A DNA stretch of 64,000 nucleotides from Canna indica. Taxonomy: Eukaryota; Streptophyta; Magnoliopsida; Zingiberales; Cannaceae. Position numbers and translations under genes: made by a program. Positions 1 to 64,000 of this stretch are shown here, piece after piece (positions within the stretch are counted from its first letter, which is position 1; each line of letters opens with the position of its first letter). Below the pieces are notes generated by a model that made no database searches, was not told the DNA's origin, and saw nothing but the letters and a program-made list of their open reading frames with translations. The DNA is taken from NCBI GenBank assembly GCA_034359265.1, contig CP136895.1, forward strand, positions 2,978,501 to 3,042,500, written 5' to 3'.

Positions 1-180
1 CCTAGTCATTGATGTTTCAGCTTTCGTCTATCGCTATTTTCTTATCTTCCCGCTCAAGAATGGATAGAAGATCATCATCACATCATGAAACACTTAAAAT
101 ATTGGTGGGCTTTATTGCTAGGATTTATTATCGGGGGGCAAATATAGTAATATATTAATATATATTGTCATCCCTAGATG

Positions 181-344
181 AAACACATCGATGTCGGATT
201 TTATTTTATTTAGGATATTCTTTTAAAATGAGAAATTAAGCTTTAGAAAATTGACAAATAACTCATAATCCTATAGATATATTGACTAAAGTTCTTTCGA
301 CGACCAAGTTTGATTATTACATGAATTTGATTAGGTTGATTTGA
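181..344 (+). pseudogene. Ty1/copia pol C-terminal relic (RNase H end)
   Basis: Translating from 181 gives KHIDVGFYFI followed by a stop, which matches the KHIDVRYHFI motif of copia RNase H. From 261, in another frame, it reads THNPIDILTKVLSTTKFDYY and onward to a TGA at 342-344, which matches the conserved NPADMLTK-type tail of copia polyproteins. A frame change and stops separate the two pieces, so this is a dead remnant. I see no LTR pair or polypurine tract that I could place with confidence. No function is expected. Confidence 0.75.
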
Positions 345-601
345 GGCATAGGTTAGCCCTACAAGGCTATTGGAAGAAGAAGAGAATGATACATCGATCT
401 CAAATTTTCATCAAACGAGAAAATTATGAAAGTTGACTCAATTTGACCCAAATAAGAAAGGGGCCAACTCACCGCACTAAATCCAAGAAGAAAAAAGGAG
501 TGTTTTTTCTATCGACAGGCTCAGCCCGCCCATTTGGGCCTGGCGATTGGCCCAAGCCTGCCCATGTGCCCACTATCCTTTGCCCGTTGCTAATGCATGT
601 G

Positions 602-1040
602 TAGGGGTGGAAATAAGTCAGACTAGACCTATATGATAGAAAATTGGCCTGAGCTTGGCCGGTGGCTTATTATAGGCTTTAGTTTTGACCTGAGATTGGC
701 TTGGCTTGGCCTGTGGCATATTAACGAAGCTTGTTTCTAATATAAAATTTTGGTTTGACTTAACTTGTAGCCTATGTTTTATTAAATTAAATTAATATTA
801 ATTATTATATTAAAATAATTTTAATGTAAATACGTAATAAAATAATATTATATATTATATTTATATATATATCATCTTAATTGGCTCAGGTCGGTCTATC
901 GGGCTCAATAAATTTTAAATTGAATTTGGACCTAACATGATTTAAAAAAAAGACATATTTTAAAGCAAAATTTTAAAAAATAGGTCATGCCAAATCAGAC
1001 CACTGGCTCTAACAATTCGCCTGACCTATTTTCACTCCTA
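602..1040. mobile_element. Small non-autonomous hAT-like element
   Basis: The ends are inverted repeats: TAGGGGTGGAAATAAGTC at 602-619 and, on the other strand, TAGGAGTGAAAATAGGTC at 1040-1023, 15 of 18 matching. The TAGGGGTG start is typical of plant hAT elements. The 8-bp flanks (TGCATGTG and CTCACGTG) agree at 5 of 8 positions, so the target duplication is decayed. The 439-bp interior is AT-rich in the middle and has no coding capacity. Confidence 0.65.
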
Positions 1041-1567
1041 CTCACGTGCCAGCTTCCTGCAGCTTGCTTGTGTGCCGGCGCCAACAGCAGCTGCTACAAC
1101 ATTAAAGGGTAAGGTTCTTTAAATCAAAATTGGGAATCAAACTGCATCAGAATTAAATTCTTTGGTCAAAATTGGAAATCAAGTTGCAGCTTTTAAATGC
1201 TCCGATTCAAAATTGGACATGAGAGGAAATGCAATGATTAACGGCGGATTAAAACCGGCCCATCATTAGCACCGGCCGATTTTAATTTAATTAAACCGGG
1301 TTTAATTAGAGTAAAACAGGCGCCGATTAACTTTCCCTTTCTCGTACATGGAGGCATATTTCGTCGTTCCCTTTCTCGTACATGGATGCATATTTTGTCA
1401 TGCTTATTTTTTCACTGATCACCTCCCCACCGAAAACATCTTTCCTCATCTCTTCTGAAAACCTAAACCCCACGTCGTTCTCCTCATCTCCTCCGAAAAC
1501 CTAAACCCCATGCCCGTTCTCCTCCGAAAACCCTAAACCTCATCTTCTCCTCTCCGTTCTTCTCCCC
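1041..1567. other. Promoter-like stretch with short tandem duplications and telo-box
   Basis: No gene is seen. A 34-bp segment is imperfectly duplicated at 1333-1400. A CT-rich block at 1430-1567 repeats a 'CTCCGAAAACCTAAACC' phrase about three times and contains AAACCCTAAA (1528-1537), a telo-box common in promoters of plant housekeeping genes. It ends at the ATG of the chimeric gene fragment, so it may be the captured 5' flank and leader of that gene. Confidence 0.4.
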
Positions 1568-2246
1568 ATGCCATCGTCATCTTCTCGATTTATGGCGATG
1601 ATGGCGGCGGCGACAAGACGGAAGGAGGCCACCTCCACCACTCTCCTTCGCACCCTCCGCCTAAGGCAGAGCCACGCCAAACCCTCCGCCCACTTCGTAG
1701 GCGCCCGCTCCACGACTTTGCCAACTTCGATGACTACTTGGACGAAGAGGGGGAAGAAGAGCAGGAGAGAAGGGAAGAGAGGTGGAAGCTGAAGTTCCTT
1801 CTCGGGTTGCCTCCTCGTGTTCTCCCTCTCATTGCAGTTAACCAGGTACATATTTTCATTTGCATCAATGTTAAATAATGCTTTTCATTCCAATTCTCCA
1901 TTCAGTGGAGACACTGATGGAAGAATCCCAGTCAACTCAACAAGATACACGCTGAACGAGCTTGGCCTCAAAACTATCCAAGAACGGAAACCATGCTACA
2001 ACCATAAGAAGGTAATCATTATTATACCTTGGATCTTAAAAGTAATTTGTATCTAACTTATGCCTTCAAAACCACTAAGCATTCTTGTTCACTGTGCAGG
2101 TAGGTGGCTGGACAATTGTCTTTGACGGACTAACATTTGTTACAGTCAGGGGTGCTGGACACCAAATTCTCACATTTGCTCTCGACAAGCTCCCCAGCTT
2201 ATTTATCATAATTTACCCCCACTTGTATTCCATTCATTTCTCTTGA
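1568..2246 (+). pseudogene. Chimeric fragment ending in serine carboxypeptidase-like exons
   Basis: Three exon-like blocks are visible. The first (1568-1845) starts MPSSSSRF and is GC-rich. From about 1711 its best frame is a different one (HDFANFDDYLDEEGEE..., ending LPLIAVNQ before GT at 1846), so it is frameshifted; I do not recognise this part. The second (about 1904-2011) encodes [17 protein letters not shown] and ends at GT, which is the peptidase S10 segment carrying the catalytic Asp. The third (2100-2246, after TGTGCAG) encodes [21 protein letters not shown], including the catalytic His, then diverges from the family and stops. The lid region and the Ser-containing two thirds of a carboxypeptidase (normally about 450 residues) are absent, so no active enzyme can be made. 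Transcription is possible because the splice sites and a promoter-like leader survive. Confidence 0.7.
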
Positions 2247-3131
2247 ATTAAAAAAAAGTATTATCCATAATTTCTTGGATAATCAAGAATTGCCTGACAC
2301 ACCATTCTAGCAATGGAGATTCCTCAAGTCCACATCTAAACAGTCATATTACCAGCTCCATACTCCCTACTTCATTTTATGAAATGTTTGTCTTCCCAAC
2401 CTAAGCAAAGCAATGAGATGATTGGAAATTGGTGTTGTATCAAGCTCCAAATTAAATACTTATTTCAGTTCATATGCTGGCTTCCTATGTTTTTTTTATA
2501 ATGGGACTTACCAAAATTAAGAATTAATTACATTCAGTTACTATTATTTTTTTAGTTTTTAATCAGATACATATTACTCTTAAATCAAACCCAAGTTGGA
2601 TTAAAGATGATTGTTTTATTCTTTTATTTTATTTTTTTGAGTTGTAATTTTTTTTTAGCTTATTAATGCAATTTGAACTGCGTCAACGTTTTATAGGTTC
2701 CAAAATAATATTTATCTCAATATATTAAATTCCAAATACAGAAACTCAATATTTAGTTGTTTTTGAATAGGATCAAATTATTTCAATTTTCTAGGCATTC
2801 CCAACATTCATTAACAAAAAAAAAAAATCAAACAAGTGGCTCAAGATCATACTTCATATAGGGTGCAAGGTTAAATAGTAAGAGAATACAAACATGTTTA
2901 TCAATTTAAGTATTATAATATTCATTGATGGACATATTTCTAGTATTTGTAGTTACTATCATATATAGTTGTCAAATAGAGATTTGAATCGTGAATCATT
3001 AGGCTGATTTTTGAATTGTGAATCGTGAATTGTATTGAATCTTAAAATTCAAATCATGTTGCCAGCAGTCGTGAAATCCAATGTGTCTCATCTCCACATT
3101 GCATATAAAACCAATTGTTGCAATTGTTGCC
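2247..3131. other. AT-rich intergenic DNA, no gene seen
   Basis: The stretch contains poly-A/T runs and degenerate repeats such as GAATCGTGAATC (about 2985-3030). At 3058-3131 lies a sequence repeated at 4608-4645 on the far side of the hAT element. I see no coding or RNA gene. Confidence 0.6.
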
Positions 3132-3305
3132 TAGGGATGGCACTGGGGCGGGTTTGGGACGGCGAAGCCAATCCTATCCCAAACCCATTAAGAAAATTCA
3201 ATCCTAAACCCGTCCCAAACCCGTTAGTATTTTGAAGGGTGATTCCCAAACCCATCCCACTAATTTAACGGGTACCCACTGGGAACCCGCTTTTCGCCCG
3301 TTAAC

Positions 3306-3373
<68 letters not shown>

Positions 3374-4471
3374 ACATATCACAACATAATTATCACAACA
3401 TTTAAACATAAATCATATAAATAGTAAGCTAATTTAAACAATGAAATCAATTATCTGAGCTAGTATCAATGACTATCGAGAGCTAGTAAAGACTATCAAT
3501 TATCTGGGAAAAAAAATGACTTCTTTCATGCAAAGAATCAATAGGAGCAGGCGGTAGGTAACAATTACAAAACAAGCAAGAAAAATAGCTTCTTTCATGC
3601 AAAAATCAACAGTAAATAATTGCAGGCAGCAGGTAAGAAAAAAGTAAACAAAAAAACAAAAAAAAACTTAAGAATCAGATCAAGGGGCGTTCGGCGTCTG
3701 CGTTGCAGCGTCAGGAGAAGCAGATCGCGGCGTCGGGTCCGTCAGGAGAAGCAATCATCAGAGTAGATCATGACATTGGGTTCGTCGGGAGAAGTAGATC
3801 GAGGCGGTCGACTACTGTTGAGAGGCGTCGGGAGAAGCAGTCGTCGGAGCAGATCGCGGCGTCGGGCCCGTCGGGCCCGTCGAGAGAAGTAGATTGAGGC
3901 GACCGGTTGCTGTTGAGAGGTGTCGGGAGAAGCAATCGTCGGAGAAGTACATCGATTGGCGGTCGGCTCTGTTGAGAGGCAATCGGCTGTTGTTGAGAGG
4001 CGTCGAGATTGAGCGACGGTCTCGAGAGAATCGGTCGTGTGATTGAGGAGCGGCGAGAGGGCGATCTAGTGAAAGGAGGGGCAGCGAGGCGGCGAGCGGG
4101 CTTGAGGGCAATCGAGCAAATGGCTGAGGCAGTGAGGCATCGGGTGACTGGGTGAATCAGGTGAATTAAAATAATGTATTATTAATTTATTTATATTATA
4201 TAATGGGTTAGGAATTAGGGTATAAGTAAAAAGACATAATTATCCCTATATAAGTATATATTAGATAATATGAAGGGTATTTAAGTAATTTTACCCTTAA
4301 CGGGTTTGGGACGGGTTTTAGACTAAAATCCTGGACCCGTCCCAAACCCTACAGGGTTTTTACCTCAAAATCCTATACCCGTCCCACGACCCAACGGGCA
4401 AAACCCGCTAATGACCTATCAGGGTCTGGGATGGGTAAATACCCATTTATACAAACCCATTGCCATCCCTA
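3132..4471. mobile_element. Non-autonomous hAT element with perfect 8-bp target duplication
   Basis: The terminal inverted repeats begin TAGGGATGGCA at both ends and agree at 15 of 16 positions. The element is flanked by identical 8-bp copies of TTGTTGCC (3124-3131 and 4472-4479), which is diagnostic of hAT insertion. Subterminal regions are rich in GGGTTTGGGACGGG-type motifs in opposite orientations. The interior has a TA tract and a GC-rich core (3680-4140) with short repeats of the GTCGGGAGAAG kind. Open frames in the core (3703-3897 plus; 3812-4111 minus) are not transposase-like. The core may descend from a GC-rich first exon of an autonomous parent. Confidence 0.88.
3310..3370. repeat. 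(TA)n microsatellite, about 30 repeats
   Basis: An uninterrupted alternation of T and A lies inside the hAT element. Length differs between units (about 60, 40, 38 and 40 bp), which makes it the most variable site of the array. Confidence 0.95.
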
Positions 4472-5438
4472 TTGTTGCCAGCAGTCCTAAATTGCATATA
4501 AAACCAATTGCATATTAATACCACATATAAAACCAATTGCATATTAAAACCAATTGCAGTCGTAATTCCACAAGAAGACAATTCCTAAATTGCATATAAA
4601 ACCAATTGTTGCCAGCAGTCGTGAAATCGAATGCGTCTCATCTCCTGACCCACATAGGCACATAGCAGGTGCGCACAGTCCTTTCTTTTGAATGATCAAA
4701 TAAAGATTAGACAATTTTTTTGCCAGAGGTAGGAGTGAGCCATCAATAAATTTTTAAATCTATCTATTAATATTGGTCTATCAAAATCATTAATCATAAA
4801 TTTCAATTTCAATTTTTTTGATTTAATTAATCAATATTTTTTTTAATATATTGAAACTACTTCAAAATAAAAGATACAAATTAAACATAATACTCATAAA
4901 TAAAAAAATTAAAGAAGAATAATATCTTTACAAACAATCGCAAGAATAAGATATTTTCATTATGAAATTCAAATATTTATTTAATAAAAATATGTATTAT
5001 AATATTTTAGAGATCCCCTTTATATCATAATATTTATTCATATTTAAAAAATATATATGATTGGTCAAATTTTGAAGAATGAAATATAATTTAAATATAC
5101 TTTAATATATTATTTTATATAAGTTTTAGAGAAAAAAATATTTTAAAAAAATTAGGAGCATAAAAATTAAAATATTATATATAAATCGATTAATCATTAT
5201 TTAACAATTAATCAGTACTCAAAAATTAAAAATTTAGAAAATAAAAATAGAAATTGAAACTATCGGATCGATTAATCTAAATATTCAATTCGATTTCGAA
5301 CCAATTTTTTAATTAACCATTCAAAAAAATATATCTACATATGCTACAGTAAAAGGAACTTGTTGAAAGAGCTTTGTTGAAATAGAAATAATTAAATAAC
5401 AATTAAGTAAAGAAAAAACAAATATGGGTCCTCGGTGA
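4472..5438. other. Intergenic: short local repeats, then AT-rich possible foldback
   Basis: At 4486-4610 the phrase 'GCATATAAAACCAATTG' recurs several times, alternating with GCAGTCGT. From about 4729 (TAGGAGTGAGCC) to about 5320 the DNA is very AT-rich. Its two halves look loosely complementary (GATTTAATTAATC and GATTAATC with TTTCAATTTC), as in decayed non-autonomous elements. I could not define ends. No gene is seen. Confidence 0.4.
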
Positions 5439-5588
5439 ATTCAAAGAGCTTTGTTGAAGTACGTATTTAACGATGGTCATGAAATGATCAACTTGTTGAA
5501 AAACCGTGGCTACATCATTGGTGATGCAGAGTCGGTGACAATAAACGGAACCATGGGTGATGATATTATCACCTACATTTATTACTAG
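5439..5588 (+). pseudogene. Unidentified exon-like coding fragment
   Basis: One frame reads about 49 residues containing LKYVFNDGHEMINLLKNRGY and then IIGDAESVTINGTMGDDI before TAG at 5586. The composition looks like real globular protein rather than random AT-rich DNA, yet it has no ATG at its start and no neighbouring exon that I can find. I do not recognise the family. It is probably the last exon of a lost gene. It lies 230 bp left of the CACTA insertion. Confidence 0.35.
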
Positions 5589-5821
5589 CGTGACATTCTA
5601 TTAGATAACACATTAGCATGTCATTATCAAACACGGTGCATTGTGATAGTTTTGACTGTCATTGAATAGCTTCGCCGACGATCTAGCGACAAGTTTAGCT
5701 ACTTGTAAACCTATTTATTCTAGTGGTATTTTCACATTTTGCATATTTCATGTGAACCAAATATATATATGTGTGTACCATATTTCCCAAGAAGTTAGAC
5801 TATATGCAAAACTTCATGTTA

Positions 5822-6240
5822 CACTACTAGAATTATGAGTATCAGCAACGGCTGATGCCGTTGCTGAGTCGTTGCTGAAGAGCATCAGCAACGGCCGAGC
5901 CGTTGCAATAGAGCCGTGACAGAAAGTCGCTTTGCTGATGACTATCAGCAACGGCCGCTCGGGCCGTCGCTAAAAATATTATCAGCAACGGCCGCTCGAG
6001 CCGTCGCTAAAAATATTATCAGCAACGGACACGAAGCCGTTGCTGATAACATTAATAGCAACGGACACGGCGTCGTTGCTGATAACATTAATAGCAACGA
6101 CCGCTGAGCCCGTAGCAAAGCCGTTAGTAAAAGCCCGTCGCTAAGCCGTTGCTGTAGGTCATCAGCAACGGCTTTCGATAAACTTTTAGCAACGGCTTTC
6201 CCACGGACGGCCGTGGGAAAGCCGTTGCTGATGATGCGTA
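5822..6240. repeat. CACTA subterminal repeat array, 3' side
   Basis: More than a dozen copies of AGCAACGG or its complement CCGTTGCT occur in both orientations. The innermost pair forms a perfect 19-bp hairpin, AGCAACGGCTTTCCCACGG (6188-6206) and its complement (6211-6229), with a 4-nt loop. In En/Spm such motifs bind the small accessory protein. Confidence 0.9.
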
Positions 6241-6456
6241 CCTGGTAACAGAAATATTAAAAAATTCTAATTTCCATTGATACATTCATTATCTGATACA
6301 TAACTCACACACTCATACACTCATACACACATTCATTCACATCACAAACACACCAAAATATACATCAAAACAATTATATTTATATTGATAATATTATCCA
6401 CGATACAATTCAAATGCAAAATTAAAATATCAATATCCAAACGAAAAATCTCACGA

Positions 6457-7971
6457 TCACGATGGAGGATGGTCTGGATCATATGGCGGGGTCTGGAGTG
6501 CTTGCGTGTACACCGGCGTGGACTGACTCGAGGACGATGGATTAGATGATGCCGAAGAGATGCCTGCTTCGGGATGACCTGACATGTTGCGTAGCATAGC
6601 ATGCATCTCCTCCATCATCTGACTCTGACGCGCGACCGTCTCCTCTAGAGTTCTTATTCTACTATTATGATCATAACTGGATCTAGATGTAGACGGCCGC
6701 TCACCAGCGACCGGAGGGGTCGGTGCCCCAAGTGGCCCTAGTACGGCCCGCGCATGACCACTATCTACAAAGCCATATACGCGGCCATGCTCCCAGCCAC
6801 CTGCGGCCTCGACCCACGATGCTGCGTCAAAGTCATCGGGGGTACCCCCGCGCTGCACCACCGTCTGGCTGTAGGTCTCCTACTCGAGTTTGATTTTTTG
6901 TTTAATATTTATCATAAAACTTAAATTATAAATATATAATAAATAATTTAAACAAATATATAATTACCATAATGTGTGCAGCGCGGTTGTCGATGTACTC
7001 CCCCGTCCCATATGCTCGACGGTGAGTCCGCTCAAACACCGCCATCGGGGAGGGTCGCTGGACACTCCCGTCATCCGACACCGTCGTCTACATTTACAAA
7101 ACAAATACATTAATTAGTACACATAATAACAAATAAAATATATAATTAAAAGATATACTTACCATACGGTTCGCGTGCACTGCAAATGCAACAGAACCGC
7201 CGGTGTGACGCGCTGCTCCCTCCGACATGCGATTTCTAGCCGCATTCCGGGAAACCTCCTTCCATCGATCCGTCGACCATATCCCCACGAGCTGGTCCCA
7301 TATATCCGGAGTAATCCAACTGGGGCCGTATCCCTGAGTCTCCGCGATGTTAGTGGTCTCAGCTCGGGCCATCGCCTGGGACCGAGCCTGCCCCAGCTGC
7401 CCGTTGTACCTTGCCCGGGAAATAGCCTCCCAGGCAACGTAAATGAAGGGCCTCTGGTCCTCGGCCCATGTATAGCGAGCCTGCAAAATAATAATATCAG
7501 TACCAATATTAATATATCATCATGCATGTAAAAAATAATAATAATACGTGCATCAAACTCGCGCCATAACATGTCGACGTGCTCGTTAGGCACGTGAGAC
7601 CACGTAGGCCATGCCCCGTGCATGTATCGTCGAATAGTAGAAGAAATGCTCCTCGGCACTTCTTCTTGCTCGAACTTGCACAACAAAAATAAAATTTAAT
7701 ATTATATTATGATATAATGAATTTGTAATGATTCATAATTCATGATATATTACCGCTCCCCAATCACGCTAATCAATCTACGTGACTCTGTGGCTGGTGG
7801 AGGCTGCCACCTGTTCGGCCCGCGTGGCCGCCTGCGTCTGGATGTACTAGCCTCGGCAGTCTCATCCTCATGAGGATCAGCAACAGGAGGATCAGCAGCA
7901 TGAGTAAGTGCTGGAGTCTCACCGATCGGAGACTCCGAAGCTCTCCTGCGTCGATAACCACGACCAGACAT
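6457..7971 (-). CDS. CACTA TNP1-like protein (Transposase_24 / Ptta type), five exons
   Basis: The accessory protein of CACTA elements is thought to bind subterminal repeats. The gene starts MSGRGYRRRRASESP at 7971. Exons by GT-AG borders are 7971-7754, 7674-7548, 7480-7163, 7087-6968 and 6879-6457, giving about 401 codons. Exon 3 has WITPDIWDQLVGIW and HTGGSVAFAVHANRM, a Transposase_24 signature. Exon 4 has MAVFERTHRRAYG. Exon 5 has the C-terminal coiled-coil segment IRTLEETVARQSQMMEEMHAM, shown here without further residues, and a Ser/Pro-rich tail. Oddity: the conserved frame of exon 2 (RRYMHGAWPTWSHVPNE) is not the one reached by canonical splicing, although total length stays in frame. 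A former acceptor one base upstream (CAG to CAA, G to A at 7676) would fix the first junction; the second would need a GC donor. The gene may be mildly damaged. Confidence 0.72.
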
Positions 7972-8048
7972 ATCTATCGAACAAACATATAATCAGATTA
8001 TTGTATAAATAGTAGAGATATATTTAATAAAATATATATACTTTACAA

Positions 8049-8687
8049 TTATTCCTCATCATCTGAATAATAGTCTTCGAATTTTTCTTCTTCTTCCTCT
8101 TCTTCATCTTCTTCATCTCCAGCTTCCTCAATTTCATGATCGTCATCATCAGCATATTCAACTTCTAATTGAATTGACGTTGTGTCTGCATCCTCGAGTA
8201 TTGGAATAATACGATCCACAGCAGGAAGATCATCTTCTTGATAGAAACCAGGAGGATCATTTTCTCCTACTATCGGATCAATTTTTCCTCTACTTTTTGT
8301 CTTACAGACTACACGCCAATCTGCTCTATCTTTATTTTGAGCCGGATACTTCGCGTAATATACTTGTTCGGCTTGTGATGCCAATATAAAAGGCTCATTT
8401 GCTGCCAATTTCGATTTATAATTAACCTCAACAAGTTTGTATTTTGGATGAACTTTCATGCCCCTTTCTGTTGTATCGAACCAATGACATCTAAATAGGA
8501 TCACTGATTTCAAGCCGAAGTAGTGCAACTCTATCACTTCTTCCACCAGTCCATAAAAATCCTTATCACATTCAACATAGGTTGTCCCTTTCACGCAGAC
8601 CCCAGCATTCATCGTCTTCTTTGTAAATGCATATTCAACCGTGTGAAATTTATACCCGTTAACAAAATATCCGCTATAGCACGACAC
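8049..8687 (-). pseudogene. CACTA transposase C-terminal piece (DUF4216)
   Basis: The 212-codon frame starts MSCYSGYFVNGYKFHT and contains GVCVKGTTYVEC, LFRCHWFDTTERGMKV and YYAKYP, the pattern of DUF4216, which normally forms the C-terminal part of TNP2-type transposases. It ends in a long acidic Glu/Asp tail. The frame is open upstream of its first Met (ERIFEFVSGPSRLVSCY) to about 8783, showing that the Met at 8687 is internal to an originally longer protein. Only 46 bp separate it from the stop of the N-terminal piece, in a different frame, with the DUF4218 region and most of the catalytic domain missing between. Confidence 0.8.
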
Positions 8688-8733
8688 AAGTCGTGACGGT
8701 CCACTAACAAACTCAAATATTCTTTCATCTATT

Positions 8734-10149
8734 TCAGCTCTGTGATCTTTGTTGTAAGTCTGAATTGAAGTTTTGCTGTATCATATGGCAGTTGAAGGTC
8801 CACAAGACCACGACCTTTAAATTGAAGTTTTGCTTCCGATGACAATCATAAGTGACAGCTCCCTCAGTCCACAATGTTTTCAATTCATCTATCAAGGGTT
8901 TGAGAAATATGTCAATTTCTTTTCGCGGACCCTTAGGACCCGGAATAATCATCGAAAGATAAATAAATTCATCTTTCATGCACATTGACGGTGGCAAATT
9001 ATAAACTGTCAGCAGCACTGGCCAAACTGAATAAGGAGTTGCAGAATGTCCAAACGGATTAAAACCATCTGTGCACAATCCCAATCTGATATTTCTAGTA
9101 TCCCTAGCAAATGAAGGATAACATGTATCCAAATGTTTCCATGCATCACTGTCAGATGGATGAGTCATTACTGTATCATCACGACTTCTTGCATGCCAAC
9201 TCATGTAGGGGGCTGTCTTTTCCGACATGAATAATCTTTGAAGCCTCGGTGTTAGTGGAAAATACCGAAGCACCTTAAACGGGATATTTTTCTGTCGGAC
9301 CGATTTCTTCTCCTTGTAACGAGGGTGTTGACATACAGGGCATTTATCCAACTGCATATTTTCTTTATAATATAAAATGCAGTTATTTTGGCACGCGTGT
9401 ATTTTTTCGTACCCAAGCCCCAATTTTCTCATTAGCTTTTTAGTCTTATAAAAAGTAGGCTCAAACTTATTATCAGTAGGCAGCATTCCAATAATCAATC
9501 CAGCAATCCGATCATACGCAACTCCGCTGATATTACAATCGACCTTGATGTTTAAGAGCTGTGTCATTGCTGAAAACCTAGTGTATTTAGGAAAATTCTC
9601 ATACAAAGGTTCATCGGCAGCTTTCAACATCTCGTAAAATTCTGCGGCTTCTTTATTCGATAATTCAATCTCTACCGCAGCCCCTACTTCTGTGATATCA
9701 ACTGCTGTAGTATCTGGTGGGACTGATGTCTGAAGAACTGGCCGATCAACATTATCATTCAGGTGGAATTGACCCCCAAGACTATCAAGTATTATAGTTC
9801 TATAGGGATTAGATTGACTGGATGAAGAAGCACCAGCAGAGGAAGATTCACCATATGTCTGAACGACAGGATTGCTCGACGTCCCGACTTCGCGTGACTC
9901 CCCGTGACAAGTCCATAGAAAATATCTTGGTGCAAATCCTTTGCTATATAGATGCAAAGTGTCAGTCTCCCGATCCAAAAATCGTCCATTTGAACAAATG
10001 CGGCACGGACATCGAATTTGATCACCCATGCTAACGAATTTCCGATTTGAATAGGCGAAATTTAGGAAGTACGTTACGCCTAATCGAAACTCATTCGTTA
10101 AAGCTCCACGATCAAGACGTCGGTACATCCAACTTCGATCAGCCGACAT
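8734..10149 (-). pseudogene. Truncated CACTA TNP2 transposase (Transposase-associated and Transposase_21)
   Basis: TNP2 is the DDE-type enzyme that cuts CACTA ends. I start at MSADRSWMYRRLD (10149), the usual family start, because TTGACAG four bases upstream looks like a splice acceptor; the frame is open from an ATG at 10170. Residues 1-85 are the transposase-associated domain with a CPCRIC cysteine motif (47-52). Residues 200-453 are the front of Transposase_21, with KCPVCQHPRYKEKK, LCTDGFNPFG (361) and YDCHRKQNFNL (434). The match stops at VLWTFN, where the family continues DFPAYG; 18 unrelated residues follow, then a stop. A 15-bp direct repeat (AATTGAAGTTTTGCT) at 8764 and 8821 flanks the scar. 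The protein has 471 residues against about 1000 expected. Residue 265 is Met here and Val in the other units. Confidence 0.88.
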
Positions 10150-10223
10150 GATTCTGTCAATCAATGACAATTTCTTTGGTTAATGTATTTAGGTGAGATT
10201 GTCCTATTCCATTCGGGATTTAT

Positions 10224-10413
10224 GTTATTTGAACTGCACTTACGTTTTTATTTTAACTGTTAACTAATTATTCTAAATTTCGGCAGGATCTCCCTATAGT
10301 TCTCCGAATACGCATATCATCTGGGCGCGTATCGGAGAACAAGAGAGATGTTGCCGAAATTTAGAATAATTAGATAACAATTAAAATAAAAACGCAAGTG
10401 CAGTACAAATAAC
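10224..10413. repeat. 190-bp foldback (hairpin) between transposase start and its leader
   Basis: The left arm from GTTATTTGAACTGCACTTACG through TTTCGGCAGG to TTCTCCGAATACGC is matched in reverse complement by the right arm ending CGCAAGTGCAGTACAAATAAC. Arms are about 85 bp with a few mismatches and a short loop at about 10312-10328. It lies in the presumed first intron of the CACTA transcript and could fold in RNA or act as a small-RNA source. Confidence 0.85.
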
Positions 10414-10621
10414 TATATTCCCAAATTGTCCAATCAGGGACAATTCAAGAATTGTACATCGTATAAAAGATAATCTACTTCTTTTACACGAACATACAAT
10501 CCCCGAACGGATCTAAGGTTTTGCTAAATCATATCCAACTCGTCGATGCGTACGTGAAACATATGAACTCGTCGGATGCATGATTATTTTCTAAATGTTT
10601 CGAGACCGTTCAAGTCCATAT

Positions 10622-10867
10622 TGGACGATTCCGGCGCGCGTCCGAAGTGGACGATTCCGGCGCGCGTCCGAAGTGGACGATACCGGCGCGCGTCCAAAGT
10701 GGACGATTCCTGCGCGCGTCCGAATTGGACGATTCCGGCGCGCGTCCGAAGTGGACGATTCCGGCGCGCGTCCGAATTGGACGATTCCGACGCGCGTCCG
10801 AAGTGGACGATTCCGGCGTGAGTCCGAATTGGACGATTCCGGCGCGCGTCCGAAGTGGATAATTCCG
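10622..10867. repeat. 26-bp GC-rich minisatellite, nine copies and a partial
   Basis: Copies begin every 26 bp from 10622 to 10830 with TGGACGATTCCGGCGCG followed by CGTCCGAAG or CGTCCGAAT, then break off at 10867. Each unit has a short GGACG...CGTCC palindrome. Because 26 is not a multiple of 3 and no stop arises, all three forward frames are open; these are not genes. Confidence 0.95.
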
Positions 10868-11007
10868 AAATTAATCTAAACCCTAAAAATTATTCTAACA
10901 AATTAAACAACTAATCTAAATAATTAATCTAAATAATTAATTAACAATTAAAAAACAATTAAAAAACAATTAAAAAGCAATAATAAAATATTATTAAACT
11001 ACAAATT

Positions 11008-11148: not shown

Positions 11149-11197
11149 ATTTTCTACCGGCCGCAACGGGAAGAGACGGCAGCCGGAGGACACATAC

Positions 11198-11614: not shown

Positions 11615-11617
11615 TTA

Positions 11618-15122: not shown

Positions 15123-15196
15123 TTGAAGAAATTAGTGTTATATTAATGCTTTAAATATGCATGTGGCTTGTTTATTGTTTTCATGAAGAATAATTG

Positions 15197-50983: not shown

Positions 50984-51025
<42 letters not shown>

Positions 51026-52979: not shown

Positions 52980-53506
52980 CTCACGTGCCAGCTTCCTGCA
53001 GCTTGCTTGTGTGCCGGCGCCAACAGCAGCTGCTACAACATTAAAGGGTAAGGTTCTTTAAATCAAAATTGGGAATCAAACTGCATCAGAATTAAATTCT
53101 TTGGTCAAAATTGGAAATCAAGTTGCAGCTTTTAAATGCTCCGATTCAAAATTGGACATGAGAGGAAATGCAATGATTAACGGCGGATTAAAACCGGCCC
53201 ATCATTAGCACCGGCCGATTTTAATTTAATTAAACCGGGTTTAATTAGAGTAAAACAGGCGCCGATTAACTTTCCCTTTCTCGTACATGGAGGCATATTT
53301 CGTCGTTCCCTTTCTCGTACATGGATGCATATTTTGTCATGCTTATTTTTTCACTGATCACCTCCCCACCGAAAACATCTTTCCTCATCTCTTCTGAAAA
53401 CCTAAACCCCACGTCGTTCTCCTCATCTCCTCCGAAAACCTAAACCCCATGCCCGTTCTCCTCCGAAAACCCTAAACCTCATCTTCTCCTCTCCGTTCTT
53501 CTCCCC

Positions 53507-54185
53507 ATGCCATCGTCATCTTCTCGATTTATGGCGATGATGGCGGCGGCGACAAGACGGAAGGAGGCCACCTCCACCACTCTCCTTCGCACCCTCCGCC
53601 TAAGGCAGAGCCACGCCAAACCCTCCGCCCACTTCGTAGGCGCCCGCTCCACGACTTTGCCAACTTCGATGACTACTTGGACGAAGAGGGGGAAGAAGAG
53701 CAGGAGAGAAGGGAAGAGAGGTGGAAGCTGAAGTTCCTTCTCGGGTTGCCTCCTCGTGTTCTCCCTCTCATTGCAGTTAACCAGGTACATATTTTCATTT
53801 GCATCAATGTTAAATAATGCTTTTCATTCCAATTCTCCATTCAGTGGAGACACTGATGGAAGAATCCCAGTCAACTCAACAAGATACACGCTGAACGAGC
53901 TTGGCCTCAAAACTATCCAAGAACGGAAACCATGCTACAACCATAAGAAGGTAATCATTATTATACCTTGGATCTTAAAAGTAATTTGTATCTAACTTAT
54001 GCCTTCAAAACCACTAAGCATTCTTGTTCACTGTGCAGGTAGGTGGCTGGACAATTGTCTTTGACGGACTAACATTTGTTACAGTCAGGGGTGCTGGACA
54101 CCAAATTCTCACATTTGCTCTCGACAAGCTCCCCAGCTTATTTATCATAATTTACCCCCACTTGTATTCCATTCATTTCTCTTGA
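53507..54185 (+). pseudogene. Chimeric carboxypeptidase-like fragment, unit 4
   Basis: Same exon pieces and frameshift; downstream it has G at 54308 (shared with unit 3) and a private G at 54560. Confidence 0.7.
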
Positions 54186-55070
54186 ATTAAAAAAAAGTAT
54201 TATCCATAATTTCTTGGATAATCAAGAATTGCCTGACACACCATTCTAGCAATGGAGATTCCTCAAGTCCACATCTAAACAGTCATATTACCAGCTCCAT
54301 ACTCCCTGCTTCATTTTATGAAATGTTTGTCTTCCCAACCTAAGCAAAGCAATGAGATGATTGGAAATTGGTGTTGTATCAAGCTCCAAATTAAATACTT
54401 ATTTCAGTTCATATGCTGGCTTCCTATGTTTTTTTTATAATGGGACTTACCAAAATTAAGAATTAATTACATTCAGTTACTATTATTTTTTTAGTTTTTA
54501 ATCAGATACATATTACTCTTAAATCAAACCCAAGTTGGATTAAAGATGATTGTTTTATTGTTTTATTTTATTTTTTTGAGTTGTAATTTTTTTTTAGCTT
54601 ATTAATGCAATTTGAACTGCGTCAACGTTTTATAGGTTCCAAAATAATATTTATCTCAATATATTAAATTCCAAATACAGAAACTCAATATTTAGTTGTT
54701 TTTGAATAGGATCAAATTATTTCAATTTTCTAGGCATTCCCAACATTCATTAACAAAAAAAAAAAATCAAACAAGTGGCTCAAGATCATACTTCATATAG
54801 GGTGCAAGGTTAAATAGTAAGAGAATACAAACATGTTTATCAATTTAAGTATTATAATATTCATTGATGGACATATTTCTAGTATTTGTAGTTACTATCA
54901 TATATAGTTGTCAAATAGAGATTTGAATCGTGAATCATTAGGCTGATTTTTGAATTGTGAATCGTGAATTGTATTGAATCTTAAAATTCAAATCATGTTG
55001 CCAGCAGTCGTGAAATCCAATGTGTCTCATCTCCACATTGCATATAAAACCAATTGTTGCAATTGTTGCC

Positions 55071-55245
55071 TAGGGATGGCACTGGGGCGGGTTTGGGACG
55101 GCGAAGCCAATCCTATCCCAAACCCATTAAGAAAATTCAATCCTAAACCCGTCCCAAACCCGTTAGTATTTTGAAGGGTGATTCCCAAACCCATCCCACT
55201 AATTTAACGGGTACCCACTGGGAACCCGCTTTTCGCCCGTTAACA

Positions 55246-55294
<49 letters not shown>

Positions 55295-56392
55295 ACATAT
55301 CACAACATAATTATCACAACATTTAAACATAAATCATATAAATAGTAAGCTAATTTAAACAATGAAATCAATTATCTGAGCTAGTATCAATGACTATCGA
55401 GAGCTAGTAAAGACTATCAATTATCTGGGAAAAAAAATGACTTCTTTCATGCAAAGAATCAATAGGAGCAGGCGGTAGGTAACAATTACAAAACAAGCAA
55501 GAAAAATAGCTTCTTTCATGCAAAAATCAACAGTAAATAATTGCAGGCAGCAGGTAAGAAAAAAGTAAACAAAAAAACAAAAAAAAACTTAAGAATCAGA
55601 TCAAGGGGCGTTCGGCGTCTGCGTTGCAGCGTCAGGAGAAGCAGATCGCGGCGTCGGGTCCGTCAGGAGAAGCAATCATCAGAGTAGATCATGACATTGG
55701 GTTCGTCGGGAGAAGTAGATCGAGGCGGTCGACTACTGTTGAGAGGCGTCGGGAGAAGCAGTCGTCGGAGCAGATCGCGGCGTCGGGCCCGTCGGGCCCG
55801 TCGAGAGAAGTAGATTGAGGCGACCGGTTGCTGTTGAGAGGTGTCGGGAGAAGCAATCGTCGGAGAAGTACATCGATTGGCGGTCGGCTCTGTTGAGAGG
55901 CAATCGGCTGTTGTTGAGAGGCGTCGAGATTGAGCGACGGTCTCGAGAGAATCGGTCGTGTGATTGAGGAGCGGCGAGAGGGCGATCTAGTGAAAGGAGG
56001 GGCAGCGAGGCGGCGAGCGGGCTTGAGGGCAATCGAGCAAATGGCTGAGGCAGTGAGGCATCGGGTGACTGGGTGAATCAGGTGAATTAAAATAATGTAT
56101 TATTAATTTATTTATATTATATAATGGGTTAGGAATTAGGGTATAAGTAAAAAGACATAATTATCCCTATATAAGTATATATTAGATAATATGAAGGGTA
56201 TTTAAGTAATTTTACCCTTAACGGGTTTGGGACGGGTTTTAGACTAAAATCCTGGACCCGTCCCAAACCCTACAGGGTTTTTACCTCAAAATCCTATACC
56301 CGTCCCACGACCCAACGGGCAAAACCCGCTAATGACCTATCAGGGTCTGGGATGGGTAAATACCCATTTATACAAACCCATTGCCATCCCTA
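55071..56392. mobile_element. Non-autonomous hAT element, unit 4
   Basis: Perfect TTGTTGCC duplications; two extra T precede the TA tract. Confidence 0.88.
55249..55290. repeat. (TA)n microsatellite, unit 4
   Basis: About 20 TA repeats after an AAATTT junction that is AAATT in the other units. Confidence 0.95.
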
Positions 56393-57355
56393 TTGTTGCC
56401 AGCAGTCCTAAATTGCATATAAAACCAATTGCATATTAATACCACATATAAAACCAATTGCATATTAAAACCAATTGCAGTCGTAATTCCACAAGAAGAC
56501 AATTCCTAAATTGCATATAAAACCAATTGTTGCCAGCAGTCGTGAAATCGAATGCGTCTCATCTCCTGACCCACATAGGCACATAGCAGGTGCGCACAGT
56601 CCTTTCTTTTGAATGATCAAATAAAGATTAGACAATTTTTTTGCCAGAGGTAGGAGTGAGCCATCAATAAATTTTTAAATCTATCTATTAATATTGGTCT
56701 ATCAAAATCATTAATCATAAATTTCAATTTCAATTTTTTTGATTTAATTAATCAATATTTTTTTTAATATATTGAAACTACTTCAAAATAAAAGATACAA
56801 ATTAAACATAATACTCATAAATAAAAAAATTAAAGAAGAATAATATCTTTACAAACAATCGCAAGAATAAGATATTTTCATTATGAAATTCAAATATTTA
56901 TTTAATAAAAATATGTATTATAATATTTTAGAGATCCCCTTTATATCATAATATTTATTCATATTTAAAAAATATATATGATTGGTCAAATTTTGAAGAA
57001 TGAAATATAATTTAAATATACTTTAATATATTATTTTATATAAGTTTTAGAGAAAAAAATATTTTAAAAAAATTAGGAGCATAAAAATTAAAATATTATA
57101 TATAAATCGATTAATCATTATTTAACAATTAATCAGTACTCAAAAATTAAAAATTTAGAAAATAAAAATAGAAATTGAAACTATCGGATCGATTAATCTA
57201 AATATTCAATTCGATTTCGAACCAATTTTTTAATTAACCATTCAAAAAAATATATCTACATATGCTACAGTAAAAGGAACTTGTTGAAAGAGCTTTGTTG
57301 AAATAGAAATAATTAAATAACAATTAAGTAAAGAAAAAACAAATATGGGTCCTCG

Positions 57356-57363
57356 ACTCCTCG
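57356..57363. repeat. 8-bp insertion shared with unit 3
   Basis: Same ACTCCTCG insertion before GTGAATTC. Confidence 0.9.
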
Positions 57364-57367
57364 GTGA

Positions 57368-57517
57368 ATTCAAAGAGCTTTGTTGAAGTACGTATTTAAC
57401 GATGGTCATGAAATGATCAACTTGTTGAAAAACCGTGGCTACATCATTGGTGATGCAGAGTCGGTGACAATAAACGGAACCATGGGTGATGATATTATCA
57501 CCTACATTTATTACTAG
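57368..57517 (+). pseudogene. Unidentified exon-like fragment, unit 4
   Basis: Same reading frame as in the other units. Confidence 0.35.
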
Positions 57518-58385
57518 CGTGACATTCTATTAGATAACACATTAGCATGTCATTATCAAACACGGTGCATTGTGATAGTTTTGACTGTCATTGAATAGCT
57601 TCGCCGACGATCTAGCGACAAGTTTAGCTACTTGTAAACCTATTTATTCTAGTGGTATTTTCACATTTTGCATATTTCATGTGAACCAAATATATATATG
57701 TGTGTACCATATTTCCCAAGAAGTTAGACTATATGCAAAACTTCATGTTACACTACTAGAATTATGAGTATCAGCAACGGCTGATGCCGTTGCTGAGTCG
57801 TTGCTGAAGAGCATCAGCAACGGCCGAGCCGTTGCAATAGAGCCGTGACAGAAAGTCGCTTTGCTGATGACTATCAGCAACGGCCGCTCGGGCCGTCGCT
57901 AAAAATATTATCAGCAACGGCCGCTCGAGCCGTCGCTAAAAATATTATCAGCAACGGACACGAAGCCGTTGCTGATAACATTAATAGCAACGGACACGGC
58001 GTCGTTGCTGATAACATTAATAGCAACGACCGCTGAGCCCGTAGCAAAGCCGTTAGTAAAAGCCCGTCGCTAAGCCGTTGCTGTAGGTCATCAGCAACGG
58101 CTTTCGATAAACTTTTAGCAACGGCTTTCCCACGGACGGCCGTGGGAAAGCCGTTGCTGATGATGCGTACCTGGTAACAGAAATATTAAAAAATTCTAAT
58201 TTCCATTGATACATTCATTATCTGATACATAACTCACACACTCATACACTCATACACACATTCATTCACATCACAAACACACCAAAATATACATCAAAAC
58301 AATTATATTTATATTGATAATATTATCCACGATACAATTCAAATGCAAAATTAAAATATCAATATCCAAACGAAAAATCTCACGA

Positions 58386-59900
58386 TCACGATGGAGGATG
58401 GTCTGGATCATATGGCGGGGTCTGGAGTGCTTGCGTGTACACCGGCGTGGACTGACTCGAGGACGATGGATTAGATGATGCCGAAGAGATGCCTGCTTCG
58501 GGATGACCTGACATGTTGCGTAGCATAGCATGCATCTCCTCCATCATCTGACTCTGACGCGCGACCGTCTCCTCTAGAGTTCTTATTCTACTATTATGAT
58601 CATAACTGGATCTAGATGTAGACGGCCGCTCACCAGCGACCGGAGGGGTCGGTGCCCCAAGTGGCCCTAGTACGGCCCGCGCATGACCACTATCTACAAA
58701 GCCATATACGCGGCCATGCTCCCAGCCACCTGCGGCCTCGACCCACGATGCTGCGTCAAAGTCATCGGGGGTACCCCCGCGCTGCACCACCGTCTGGCTG
58801 TAGGTCTCCTACTCGAGTTTGATTTTTTGTTTAATATTTATCATAAAACTTAAATTATAAATATATAATAAATAATTTAAACAAATATATAATTATCATA
58901 ATGTGTGCAGCGCGGTTGTCGATGTACTCCCCCGTCCCATATGCTCGACGGTGAGTCCGCTCAAACACCGCCATCGGGGAGGGTCGCTGGACACTCCCGT
59001 CATCCGACACCGTCGTCTACATTTACAAAACAAATACATTAATTAGTACACATAATAACAAATAAAATATATAATTAAAAGATATACTTACCATACGGTT
59101 CGCGTGCACTGCAAATGCAACAGAACCGCCGGTGTGACGCGCTGCTCCCTCCGACATGCGATTTCTAGCCGCATTCCGGGAAACCTCCTTCCATCGATCC
59201 GTCGACCATATCCCCACGAGCTGGTCCCATATATCCGGAGTAATCCAACTGGGGCCGTATCCCTGAGTCTCCGCGATGTTAGTGGTCTCAGCTCGGGCCA
59301 TCGCCTGGGACCGAGCCTGCCCCAGCTGCCCGTTGTACCTTGCCCGGGAAATAGCCTCCCAGGCAACGTAAATGAAGGGCCTCTGGTCCTCGGCCCATGT
59401 ATAGCGAGCCTGCAAAATAATAATATCAGTACCAATATTAATATATCATCATGCATGTAAAAAATAATAATAATACGTGCATCAAACTCGCGCCATAACA
59501 TGTCGACGTGCTCGTTAGGCACGTGAGACCACGTAGGCCATGCCCCGTGCATGTATCGTCGAATAGTAGAAGAAATGCTCCTCGGCACTTCTTCTTGCTC
59601 GAACTTGCACAACAAAAATAAAATTTAATATTATATTATGATATAATGAATTTGTAATGATTCATAATTCATGATATATTACCGCTCCCCAATCACGCTA
59701 ATCAATCTACGTGACTCTGTGGCTGGTGGAGGCTGCCACCTGTTCGGCCCGCGTGGCCGCCTGCGTCTGGATGTACTAGCCTCGGCAGTCTCATCCTCAT
59801 GAGGATCAGCAACAGGAGGATCAGCAGCATGAGTAAGTGCTGGAGTCTCACCGATCGGAGACTCCGAAGCTCTCCTGCGTCGATAACCACGACCAGACAT
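58386..59900 (-). pseudogene. CACTA TNP1-like gene with lost exon 4 splice donor, unit 4
   Basis: Exons by analogy: 59900-59683, 59603-59477, 59409-59092, 59016-58897 and 58808-58386. After exon 4 the donor reads ATG|ATAATT instead of ATG|GTAATT, because 58896 is T here and C in the other three units (G to A on the coding strand). Normal removal of intron 4 should fail. Retaining the intron adds a few codons and then an in-frame stop soon after, removing the exon 5 coiled coil. Confidence 0.7.
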
Positions 59901-59977
59901 ATCTATCGAACAAACATATAATCAGATTATTGTATAAATAGTAGAGATATATTTAATAAAATATATATACTTTACAA

Positions 59978-60616
59978 TTATTCCTCATCATCTGAATAAT
60001 AGTCTTCGAATTTTTCTTCTTCTTCCTCTTCTTCATCTTCTTCATCTCCAGCTTCCTCAATTTCATGATCGTCATCATCAGCATATTCAACTTCTAATTG
60101 AATTGACGTTGTGTCTGCATCCTCGAGTATTGGAATAATACGATCCACAGCAGGAAGATCATCTTCTTGATAGAAACCAGGAGGATCATTTTCTCCTACT
60201 ATCGGATCAATTTTTCCTCTACTTTTTGTCTTACAGACTACACGCCAATCTGCTCTATCTTTATTTTGAGCCGGATACTTCGCGTAATATACTTGTTCGG
60301 CTTGTGATGCCAATATAAAAGGCTCATTTGCTGCCAATTTCGATTTATAATTAACCTCAACAAGTTTGTATTTTGGATGAACTTTCATGCCCCTTTCTGT
60401 TGTATCGAACCAATGACATCTAAATAGGATCACTGATTTCAAGCCGAAGTAGTGCAACTCTATCACTTCTTCCACCAGTCCATAAAAATCCTTATCACAT
60501 TCAACATAGGTTGTCCCTTTCACGCAGACCCCAGCATTCATCGTCTTCTTTGTAAATGCATATTCAACCGTGTGAAATTTATACCCGTTAACAAAATATC
60601 CGCTATAGCACGACAC
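59978..60616 (-). pseudogene. CACTA DUF4216 piece, unit 4
   Basis: Same 212-codon frame. Confidence 0.8.
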
Positions 60617-60662
60617 AAGTCGTGACGGTCCACTAACAAACTCAAATATTCTTTCATCTATT

Positions 60663-62078
60663 TCAGCTCTGTGATCTTTGTTGTAAGTCTGAATTGAAGT
60701 TTTGCTGTATCATATGGCAGTTGAAGGTCCACAAGACCACGACCTTTAAATTGAAGTTTTGCTTCCGATGACAATCATAAGTGACAGCTCCCTCAGTCCA
60801 CAATGTTTTCAATTCATCTATCAAGGGTTTGAGAAATATGTCAATTTCTTTTCGCGGACCCTTAGGACCCGGAATAATCATCGAAAGATAAATAAATTCA
60901 TCTTTCATGCACATTGACGGTGGCAAATTATAAACTGTCAGCAGCACTGGCCAAACTGAATAAGGAGTTGCAGAATGTCCAAACGGATTAAAACCATCTG
61001 TGCACAATCCCAATCTGATATTTCTAGTATCCCTAGCAAATGAAGGATAACATGTATCCAAATGTTTCCATGCATCACTGTCAGATGGATGAGTCATTAC
61101 TGTATCATCACGACTTCTTGCATGCCAACTCATGTAGGGGGCTGTCTTTTCCGACATGAATAATCTTTGAAGCCTCGGTGTTAGTGGAAAATACCGAAGC
61201 ACCTTAAACGGGATATTTTTCTGTCGGACCGATTTCTTCTCCTTGTAACGAGGGTGTTGACATACAGGGCATTTATCCAACTGCACATTTTCTTTATAAT
61301 ATAAAATGCAGTTATTTTGGCACGCGTGTATTTTTTCGTACCCAAGCCCCAATTTTCTCATTAGCTTTTTAGTCTTATAAAAAGTAGGCTCAAACTTATT
61401 ATCAGTAGGCAGCATTCCAATAATCAATCCAGCAATCCGATCATACGCAACTCCGCTGATATTACAATCGACCTTGATGTTTAAGAGCTGTGTCATTGCT
61501 GAAAACCTAGTGTATTTAGGAAAATTCTCATACAAAGGTTCATCGGCAGCTTTCAACATCTCGTAAAATTCTGCGGCTTCTTTATTCGATAATTCAATCT
61601 CTACCGCAGCCCCTACTTCTGTGATATCAACTGCTGTAGTATCTGGTGGGACTGATGTCTGAAGAACTGGCCGATCAACATTATCATTCAGGTGGAATTG
61701 ACCCCCAAGACTATCAAGTATTATAGTTCTATAGGGATTAGATTGACTGGATGAAGAAGCACCAGCAGAGGAAGATTCACCATATGTCTGAACGACAGGA
61801 TTGCTCGACGTCCCGACTTCGCGTGACTCCCCGTGACAAGTCCATAGAAAATATCTTGGTGCAAATCCTTTGCTATATAGATGCAAAGTGTCAGTCTCCC
61901 GATCCAAAAATCGTCCATTTGAACAAATGCGGCACGGACATCGAATTTGATCACCCATGCTAACGAATTTCCGATTTGAATAGGCGAAATTTAGGAAGTA
62001 CGTTACGCCTAATCGAAACTCATTCGTTAAAGCTCCACGATCAAGACGTCGGTACATCCAACTTCGATCAGCCGACAT
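60663..62078 (-). pseudogene. Truncated TNP2 transposase, unit 4
   Basis: Same truncation; Val at residue 265. Confidence 0.88.
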
Positions 62079-62152
62079 GATTCTGTCAATCAATGACAAT
62101 TTCTTTGGTTAATGTATTTAGGTGAGATTGTCCTATTCCATTCGGGATTTAT

Positions 62153-62342
62153 GTTATTTGAACTGCACTTACGTTTTTATTTTAACTGTTAACTAATTAT
62201 TCTAAATTTCGGCAGGATCTCCCTATAGTTCTCCGAATACGCATATCATCTGGGCGCGTATCGGAGAACAAGAGAGATGTTGCCGAAATTTAGAATAATT
62301 AGATAACAATTAAAATAAAAACGCAAGTGCAGTACAAATAAC
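62153..62342. repeat. 190-bp foldback, unit 4
   Basis: Arms and loop are as in unit 1. Confidence 0.85.
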
Positions 62343-62550
62343 TATATTCCCAAATTGTCCAATCAGGGACAATTCAAGAATTGTACATCGTATAAAAGAT
62401 AATCTACTTCTTTTACACGAACATACAATCCCCGAACGGATCTAAGGTTTTGCTAAATCATATCCAACTCGTCGATGCGTACGTGAAACATATGAACTCG
62501 TCGGATGCATGATTATTTTCTAAATGTTTCGAGACCGTTCAAGTCCATAT

Positions 62551-62796
62551 TGGACGATTCCGGCGCGCGTCCGAAGTGGACGATTCCGGCGCGCGTCCGA
62601 AGTGGACGATACCGGCGCGCGTCCAAAGTGGACGATTCCTGCGCGCGTCCGAATTGGACGATTCCGGCGCGCGTCCGAAGTGGACGATTCCGGCGCGCGT
62701 CCGAATTGGACGATTCCGACGCGCGTCCGAAGTGGACGATTCCGGCGTGAGTCCGAATTGGACGATTCCGGCGCGCGTCCGAAGTGGATAATTCCG
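62551..62796. repeat. 26-bp minisatellite, unit 4
   Basis: Nine copies and a partial, unchanged. Confidence 0.95.
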
Positions 62797-62936
62797 AAAT
62801 TAATCTAAACCCTAAAAATTATTCTAACAAATTAAACAACTAATCTAAATAATTAATCTAAATAATTAATTAACAATTAAAAAACAATTAAAAAACAATT
62901 AAAAAGCAATAATAAAATATTATTAAACTACAAATT

Positions 62937-63071
62937 CCGGCGCCGGAGTCAGGTGGACTCCGGCGCCGGCGTACACTGGCCGGACACACTGTCCGGCCAA
63001 TGTACAAGGACCGGCGGCGGCCATCGGCCGACCGCCGCCGGCCGAAACCCTATTTTTAGGGTTTCGGTCGG
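62937..63071. promoter_or_regulatory. Four stem-loops, CACTA 5' region, unit 4
   Basis: Short-spacer form as in units 2 and 3. Confidence 0.8.
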
Positions 63072-63540
63072 ATTTTCTACCGGCCGCAACGGGAAGAGAC
63101 GGCAGCCGGAGGACACATACCTTACAGTGTCGGCAGCAGCGGGAGGAGTCGTCGGCGTCGTCGGCAGCAGCGGCAGCGGCGGCGAGAGGTGAGGAGAGGA
63201 GCGGCGGCGGCAGCAGCGGGAGGAAGAAGGGGGCGGGCGCGATGCGTGCCCTATATTAACTTATCAGCAACGGCTCACTCGCCCGTTAGAAAGCCGTTGC
63301 TGATAAGTTATCATCAGCAACGGCTCACTTGTCCGTTAGTAAGCCGTTGCTAATAAGTTATCATAAGCAACGGCTCACTTGTCCGTTAGAAAGCCGTTGC
63401 TAATAATTAACATTACCAGCAACGGCTCGCATGTCCGTTAGAAAGCCGTTGCAGATACAACATATTTGCAACGGCTCGAGCGGCCGTATGAATGCCGTTG
63501 CTGATAGCCGTTGCTGAAGATCAAGTTTCTAGTAGTGTTA

Positions 63541-64000
63541 ACCTAATGCCCACCCTAAGAAACTAGTCATTGTTATGCCTTAAAGGGCCGTTTGGTATAA
63601 TACTAAGTTACTAACATGTATAGTACTAATTTGTATTGTATTATTATACAATGTTTGATGCAGACATGTACTATAGCCTGTAGTGTACTATTATTATTAT
63701 ATGCAAGTGCCAAAACCTTATAATCATGTATGTAATCATCATCATTCTTTGATCCATATCTATTCATTAAGCAAAAGAAGAGTATTAAAAAATAATCAAT
63801 TAAAGTAACATCATGGGAGATATTCAAAGACAAACCGGTGAGCAAACAATATTTCTATTCAATCAATTCTTTTTGCTATATATATTACTAGCAGCTAGTA
63901 ATGCTTAATTAACCTCTGTGAATGTTCCATCATTATTCTCATAATTAGCTTAGACTATTATCTTCAATGCTTCTGAATAATTCATAAACAAAATGCCTTG
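63541..64000 (+). promoter_or_regulatory. Upstream region of an expected fourth NLR, cut by window end
   Basis: Matches 11618-12077 of unit 1 to the last base. By the constant offset the start codon of copy 4 would fall at about 64370. Confidence 0.5.

Follow-up and report, generated by a model that had tools for sequence, protein, structure and literature searches.

The 64,000-nucleotide stretch of Canna indica DNA analyzed here (the window, C6:2978501-3042500, where C6 is contig CP136895.1) is the interior of a larger tandem array at C6:2.97-3.13 Mb, in an assembly of 752.9 Mb and nine contigs. The units of the array are ~17.3 kb long and carry genes for a nucleotide-binding leucine-rich-repeat immune receptor (NLR). 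We propose, with a probability of about 0.75, that this array grew very recently from a two-gene locus through repeated unequal crossing-over between misaligned units. Ten NLR genes stand in the assembled order B0 A1 A2 A3 A4 B5 A6 A7 B8 A9, where A is an intact receptor gene and B a broken paralogue. The A reading frame is open for 891 residues in 7/7 copies, and 6/7 are identical in DNA. Very recent expansion had been one of the explanations offered in an earlier note on the window; it is supported by the few bases that separate the units, transposon included, and by markers that read as the outcome of successive unequal crossovers.

Extent and periodicity of the array

Self-BLAST of the window returned three off-diagonal matches of 46.7, 29.4, and 12.1 kb, 99.7-99.9% identical, at offsets that are multiples of 17.3 kb and reaching up to the window ends. 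Chance cannot account for self-matches of such length and identity. The periods measure 17331, 17299, and 17309 bases, followed by 12061 bases of a fourth unit, which agrees with the four head-to-tail units described earlier; the start at base 1 is the window edge, and the phase is arbitrary. Comparison of the window units recovered the four single-base substitution sites that had been noticed before, together with length changes at five places. The units are as follows.

Window 1..17331, C6:2978501-2995831: unit U1, from self-BLAST and period alignment, with its phase set by the window edge
Window 17332..34630, C6:2995832-3013130: unit U2, from period alignment
Window 34631..51939, C6:3013131-3030439: unit U3, from period alignment
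Window 51940..64000: first 12061 bases of unit U4, from period alignment, starting at C6:3030440 and ending outside the window at C6:3047755
C6:3047756, 3065245, 3082557, 3099863, and 3117340: starts of units U5-U9, outside the window

We compared the surrounding region, C6:2908501-3172500, with the window. The near-identical array, ~160 kb in all, begins near C6:2971.7 kb and ends near 3133.5 kb; it comprises nine full ~17.3-kb units preceded by a partial unit, U0. The earlier count of four units thus holds for the window, and the full array is larger, continuing beyond both ends. U1-U9 are mutually distinct (9/9), and the left and right flanks of the array are unlike each other. Right of 3133.5 kb, the repeat goes on as a 91-97% alike copy until about 3137.1 kb; leftward, U0 passes into a flank whose likeness drops to ~91% over 0.34 kb. 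Both the flanking old repeat and the stretch that follows the rightmost A gene have remained about 3-9% different. We read these diverged edge copies as an older tandem pair beneath the young array.

Intact and broken receptor genes

The window contains the three complete 891-residue NLR genes reported earlier, and their DNA is identical.

12447..15122, plus strand: NLR-A copy 1, 891 residues in a single open frame, with a coiled-coil (CC) domain, NB-ARC at residues 158-400, a winged helix, and an RPS2-type leucine-rich repeat (LRR)
29752..32427, plus strand: NLR-A copy 2, same DNA as copy 1
47057..49732, plus strand: NLR-A copy 3, same DNA as copy 1

The fourth gene, predicted to lie just outside, exists at C6:3042870, equivalent to window position 64370. 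The view that a single NLR had been amplified fits A and fails for the array as a whole, where a paralogue carrying two premature stops is interspersed at three places, all outside the window. The NLR-B protein is 77% identical to A, and its two in-frame stops leave the same broken frame in 3/3 copies. In B0, the stops fall at residues 570 and 713; a 569-residue product could still be made, with the NB-ARC and the beginning of the LRR.

The array holds three NLR sequence types: A, A9, and B. At the right edge, A9 differs from the other A copies by 20 bases and 15 residues, and 18 of these 20 changes lie within 188 bp (coding sequence 948-1135) inside the NB-ARC. At the sites of this tract, A9 carries the B base at 11/18 and a non-B base at 7/18, and each of seven other paralogous sequences compared matches at no more than 11. 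A donor was sought among paralogues and in a DNA search of the plant's own genome (22 matches) and none was found; the best other match, at 94%, is to the A copies. Because of the seven non-B sites and the lack of any compared paralogue matching more than 11, the tract looks like a conversion whose donor was a relative absent from the sequences compared.

NLR genes within one cluster are usually diverse. Among 51 scored of 390 first-look candidates in the same genome, the closest full-length relatives outside the array lie at C6:3.45-3.58 Mb and are 81, 80, and 71% identical, so the cluster also holds the usual diverged paralogues. No scored candidate outside the array gave a full-length match above 81% identity, and the rest are partial, stop-bearing, or at most 41% identical. 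When A is compared with four paralogues, the overall ratio of nonsynonymous to synonymous change is 0.51-0.68; for the LRR it is 0.70-1.05. Searching the 17.3-kb unit for another NLR fragment gave only two matches, with E values of 2.8 and 6.2.

Two further loci concern NLR genes elsewhere. Some 14 kb to the left of the array, C6:2954776-2957769 (minus strand) holds a 998-codon open frame in which one stretch is 25.5% identical to NLR-A residues 234-631; it is probably a distant NLR. On C8, NB-ARC hits of equal score and frame length at C8:75203923 and C8:75236311 lie 32.4 kb apart in a large NLR cluster (C8:75.0-76.1 Mb) and may represent a second recent tandem duplication.

Unit anatomy and the shared transposon

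A transposon of the CACTA (En/Spm) family accompanies the receptor gene. It has ends that form inverted repeats, a 3-bp target duplication, and a tnp2 transposase.

5822..11614, minus strand: CACTA in U1, ends CACTACTAGAA / TTCTAGTAGTG, TTA target duplication, tnp2 (Transposase_21) on the minus strand
23133..28919, minus strand: CACTA in U2, same insertion
40438..46224, minus strand: CACTA in U3, same insertion
57751..63537, minus strand: CACTA in U4, same insertion
11615..12190: 576-bp tract upstream of NLR-A, with at most one difference among U1-U9 and, in U0, a single mismatch over 580 bases
15123..17331: region behind NLR-A, with the same sequence found behind the B gene of U0

Both ends of the element, with TTA on either side, are present in 9/9 full units, and in A units it sits some 0.8 kb ahead of the ATG. 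U0 has an empty site with a single TTA, so the simplest account is that the element went into the spacer a single time, before amplification, and was then copied along. Inside it, a 26-bp minisatellite (window 10614-10867 in U1) has one extra repeat in U5, U8, and U9 relative to the remaining six units and makes a handy length marker.

Further left of the 576-bp tract, U0 is only ~91% alike, which suggests that the tract was where the exchange ahead of the B genes took place. Each B gene is preceded by ~1.2 kb (C6:2972265-2973471 at B0, likewise at B5 and B8) that has no counterpart at A. This stretch holds a fragment with a match to the tubulin-tyrosine-ligase family (PF03133, 5e-12), perhaps captured gene debris. 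No tRNA genes were found in the whole window and no Rfam families in window positions 1-17400.

Mobile elements also occur in the flanks. Left of the array, C6:2962971-2970704 holds a copia-like retrotransposon, so labeled from its open reading frames, that is apparently split by another, shorter CACTA; where this element aligns with the one in the array, the pieces are 85-96% alike. Long reverse-transcriptase-type open reading frames lie on both sides of the array (C6:2908612-2926029 and 3138061-3147140); these resemble endogenous pararetrovirus or other retroelements.

Mosaic units and a proposed history

Markers that distinguish the units change in long blocks, not in short patches. U0 switches from B to A within 33 bp at the NLR stop codon, with 40 B-state sites at 2975902-2976268 and 10 A-state sites from 2976302; after the switch, it has no substitutions relative to U1 over ~2.2 kb to the unit end. 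B5 and B8 end in a different tail, which carries a ~0.95-kb deletion, and the transposon-bearing spacer lies ahead of both. U6 combines two sources: it matches U9 with no substitutions over u1-5821, both having a 1-bp deletion at 666, and matches U1 with no substitutions over the CACTA, with 9357T, a third CCGGCG, and tail lengths in common. U7 and U2 show no substitutions over the whole unit and two gap runs in the tail, where the lengths of U7 equal those of U4. U5 and U8 are separated by one substitution and one 12-base gap. U2, U3, and U4 look like a tripled form of U7, since U7 joins the left markers of U2 to the tail lengths of U4.

Only U3 and U4 have 2369G and an 8-bp insertion at u5428. 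Within the window, the 8-bp difference could be taken for a deletion in U1 and U2; this reading was dropped because, across nine units, the bases are present only in U3 and U4, making an insertion the simpler reading.

From the gene order, reading frames, CACTA sites, and mosaics of the assembly, we infer a two-gene start, an order of events, and crossovers at the joints. The locus would have begun as an older pair, arranged as left flank, B, spacer M, A, and right flank (R). Exchange at the gene edges would then have produced the B/A joint of U0, with B5 and B8 retaining their own tail behind the transposon-bearing spacer, and a five-gene array, B0 A1 A2 B A9, would have come next. An exchange between the U9 and U1 spacers, between u4176 and u8694, would have given rise to U6 (left from U9, right from U1), U7 (as U2), and U8 (as U5). 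In a final step, U2 would have tripled into U2, U3, and U4.

Several observations weigh against this history. The order and count of units are read from assembled sequence, and a false haplotype join would leave a joint like that of U6. Simple crossovers do not account for the A9 tract or for 2784T in U5, which call for conversion or recurrent mutation as well, and the 22 own-genome matches include no donor for the tract. The TA stretch departs from the scheme, with a length of 44 in U8 versus 56 in U5 and 48 in U6 versus 47 in U9. The receptor genes also show no excess lack of change: 1.46 changes were expected in the NLR and none was seen (P = 0.23).

Alternative explanations

The exchange that formed U6, the fourth step above, could instead be an assembler's join of a seven-gene haplotype (B0 A1 A2 A3 A4 B A9) and a five-gene haplotype (B0 A1 A2 B A9), with the switch in the U6 spacer. 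The amplification would then be real, ten an inflated count, and the plant heterozygous for copy number. Such a join would explain why U6 pairs the left of U9 with the right of U1, why U7 resembles the unexpanded U2-U4, why U5 and U8 are near-copies, and why 7 + 5 - 2 gives the ten genes assembled. Yet a real unequal crossover predicts an identical joint, and the markers that distinguish the spacer sources (u4176 and u8694) are ~4.5 kb apart, a distance that reads of 15-20 kb would span. Moreover, 2784T and the length of the TA stretch set U5 apart from U8, and the private changes of U9 are missing from U6. We regard this partial mis-join as unlikely; it would leave the same mark as the crossover, so the exact copy count is uncertain, and both versions need tandem A copies. 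The wider misassembly raised in the earlier note, in which one locus or two single-copy haplotypes were repeated, does not fit, since one locus or two alleles cannot supply nine distinct units and three NLR types, and the flanks are unlike each other. Near-identical units known only from assembled sequence are a familiar trap, and a single-copy locus or small circular DNA multiplied by the assembler would fall under it; against the differences among 9/9 units, the three NLR types, the mosaic joints, and the unlike flanks, we consider this highly improbable.

An old array held uniform by continuous gene conversion would account for conversion-like tracts such as the 18 changes at coding sequence 948-1135 of A9 and 2784T in U5. 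However, near-uniformity extends over the entire 17.3-kb unit, including a transposon with intact ends, the markers switch in long blocks as crossovers do, and the tail of the rightmost A gene and the flanking old repeat stayed about 3-9% different. We therefore find an old, converted array improbable and favor recent growth by unequal crossing-over.

Age and selection

U1-U4 have 4 substitution sites in 69,255 bases. Substitution rates of 6.5e-9 to 7e-9 per site place their age at about 8,000-9,000 generations or years (95% 2,200-23,000, star tree); the alternative rate of 3e-8 gives about 1,900. Gene conversion would make the array appear younger than it is. Outside the NLR, the six units with identical A genes have 8 substitution sites in 14.7 kb, microsatellites omitted. 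The absence of NLR changes is what this low overall rate predicts, so the identity of the receptors is by itself no evidence for selection, and the selection for dosage suggested earlier draws no support from it. That A stayed open in 7/7 copies while B was broken before copying fits a benefit of A and is no proof of one.

Receptor class and a possible role of gene dosage

The A protein is a plant NLR of the CC-NB-ARC-LRR class, with NB-ARC (2.5e-57), WH_DRP, LRR_8, and LRR_RPS2 in one open frame. By standard search patterns, the P-loop, kinase-2, GLPL, and MHD motifs lie at residues 176, 251, 345, and 477. Its CC label rests on a PDB match and on position. The best PDB match is 9h2l, which we take to be WAI3 (residues 68-864, E 4.3e-74), compared with 2.8e-29 for MLA13. 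The A protein gave no match to an EDVID-like motif (pattern [ED]D[VILM][IVLM][DE]). It resembles the RPS2/RPS5/WAI3-type CCG10-NLRs in its RPS2-type LRR, this motif absence, and its best PDB match; the similarity is only moderate, and the likeness is one of motifs and PDB match. According to PMC12856790, CCG10-NLRs have a CC domain without the EDVID motif, form octamers, and drive calcium influx. With less certainty, A may be an RPS2/RPS5 (CCG10)-type receptor that oligomerizes on sensing a pathogen effector, its level raised by several identical promoter-gene cassettes.

The closest precedent is barley Mla7, where identical NLR copies likewise occur in one haploid genome. One report describes three identical native copies, with at least two transgene copies needed for resistance and four for full effect, and cites similar dosage findings for Mla3 (PMC12537499); in another, droplet PCR indicates at least three Mla7 copies (PMC8617247). 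The latter also describes a 39.7-kb tandem duplication at Morex Mla, which is segmental and NLR-bearing, as here, but is one duplication of a three-family block rather than a multi-unit array. The Arabidopsis RPP5 cluster also changes by recombination: mutant plants there show a partial duplication and the loss of 13.3 kb; a multi-unit near-identical array is not described in the portion consulted (PMC10462705). Compared with Mla7, the Canna array has seven A copies in regular 17.3-kb units that each hold a transposon, with a broken paralogue interspersed. Mla is a less related NLR by PDB match, and the dosage requirement reported for Mla7 is a hypothesis here. Among loci that are not NLRs, soybean Rhg1 has tandem copies that are kept alike, with copy number tied to the trait. 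The same holds for HMA4 of Arabidopsis halleri, whose copies, evolving in concert, are set against the diversity of R genes by the paper that describes them (PMC3749932).

Six DNA-identical A copies in the assembly give this array, like Mla7, several identical receptor genes. A dosage role is plausible but unproven, given the CCG10 traits of A and the reported importance of multiple identical copies for Mla7. Since every unit is able to pair with every other, copy number would readily come to vary from one haplotype to the next. We tentatively picture the array as a natural dosage dial, in which unequal exchange would move entire promoter-gene cassettes, the plant line would gain or lose copies of the receptor stepwise with the broken sister carried along, and copy number would be polymorphic and under selection. 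We offer with similar reserve that the exchange joints of such a dial would lie at or beside the NLRs, in the 33 bp at the stop codon and the 576 bp just upstream. With seven intact copies of one receptor and single joints still readable, the array is a record of how a resistance gene grew in copy number, and it offers a setting in which to ask if resistance rises with the number of copies, as it does for barley Mla7.

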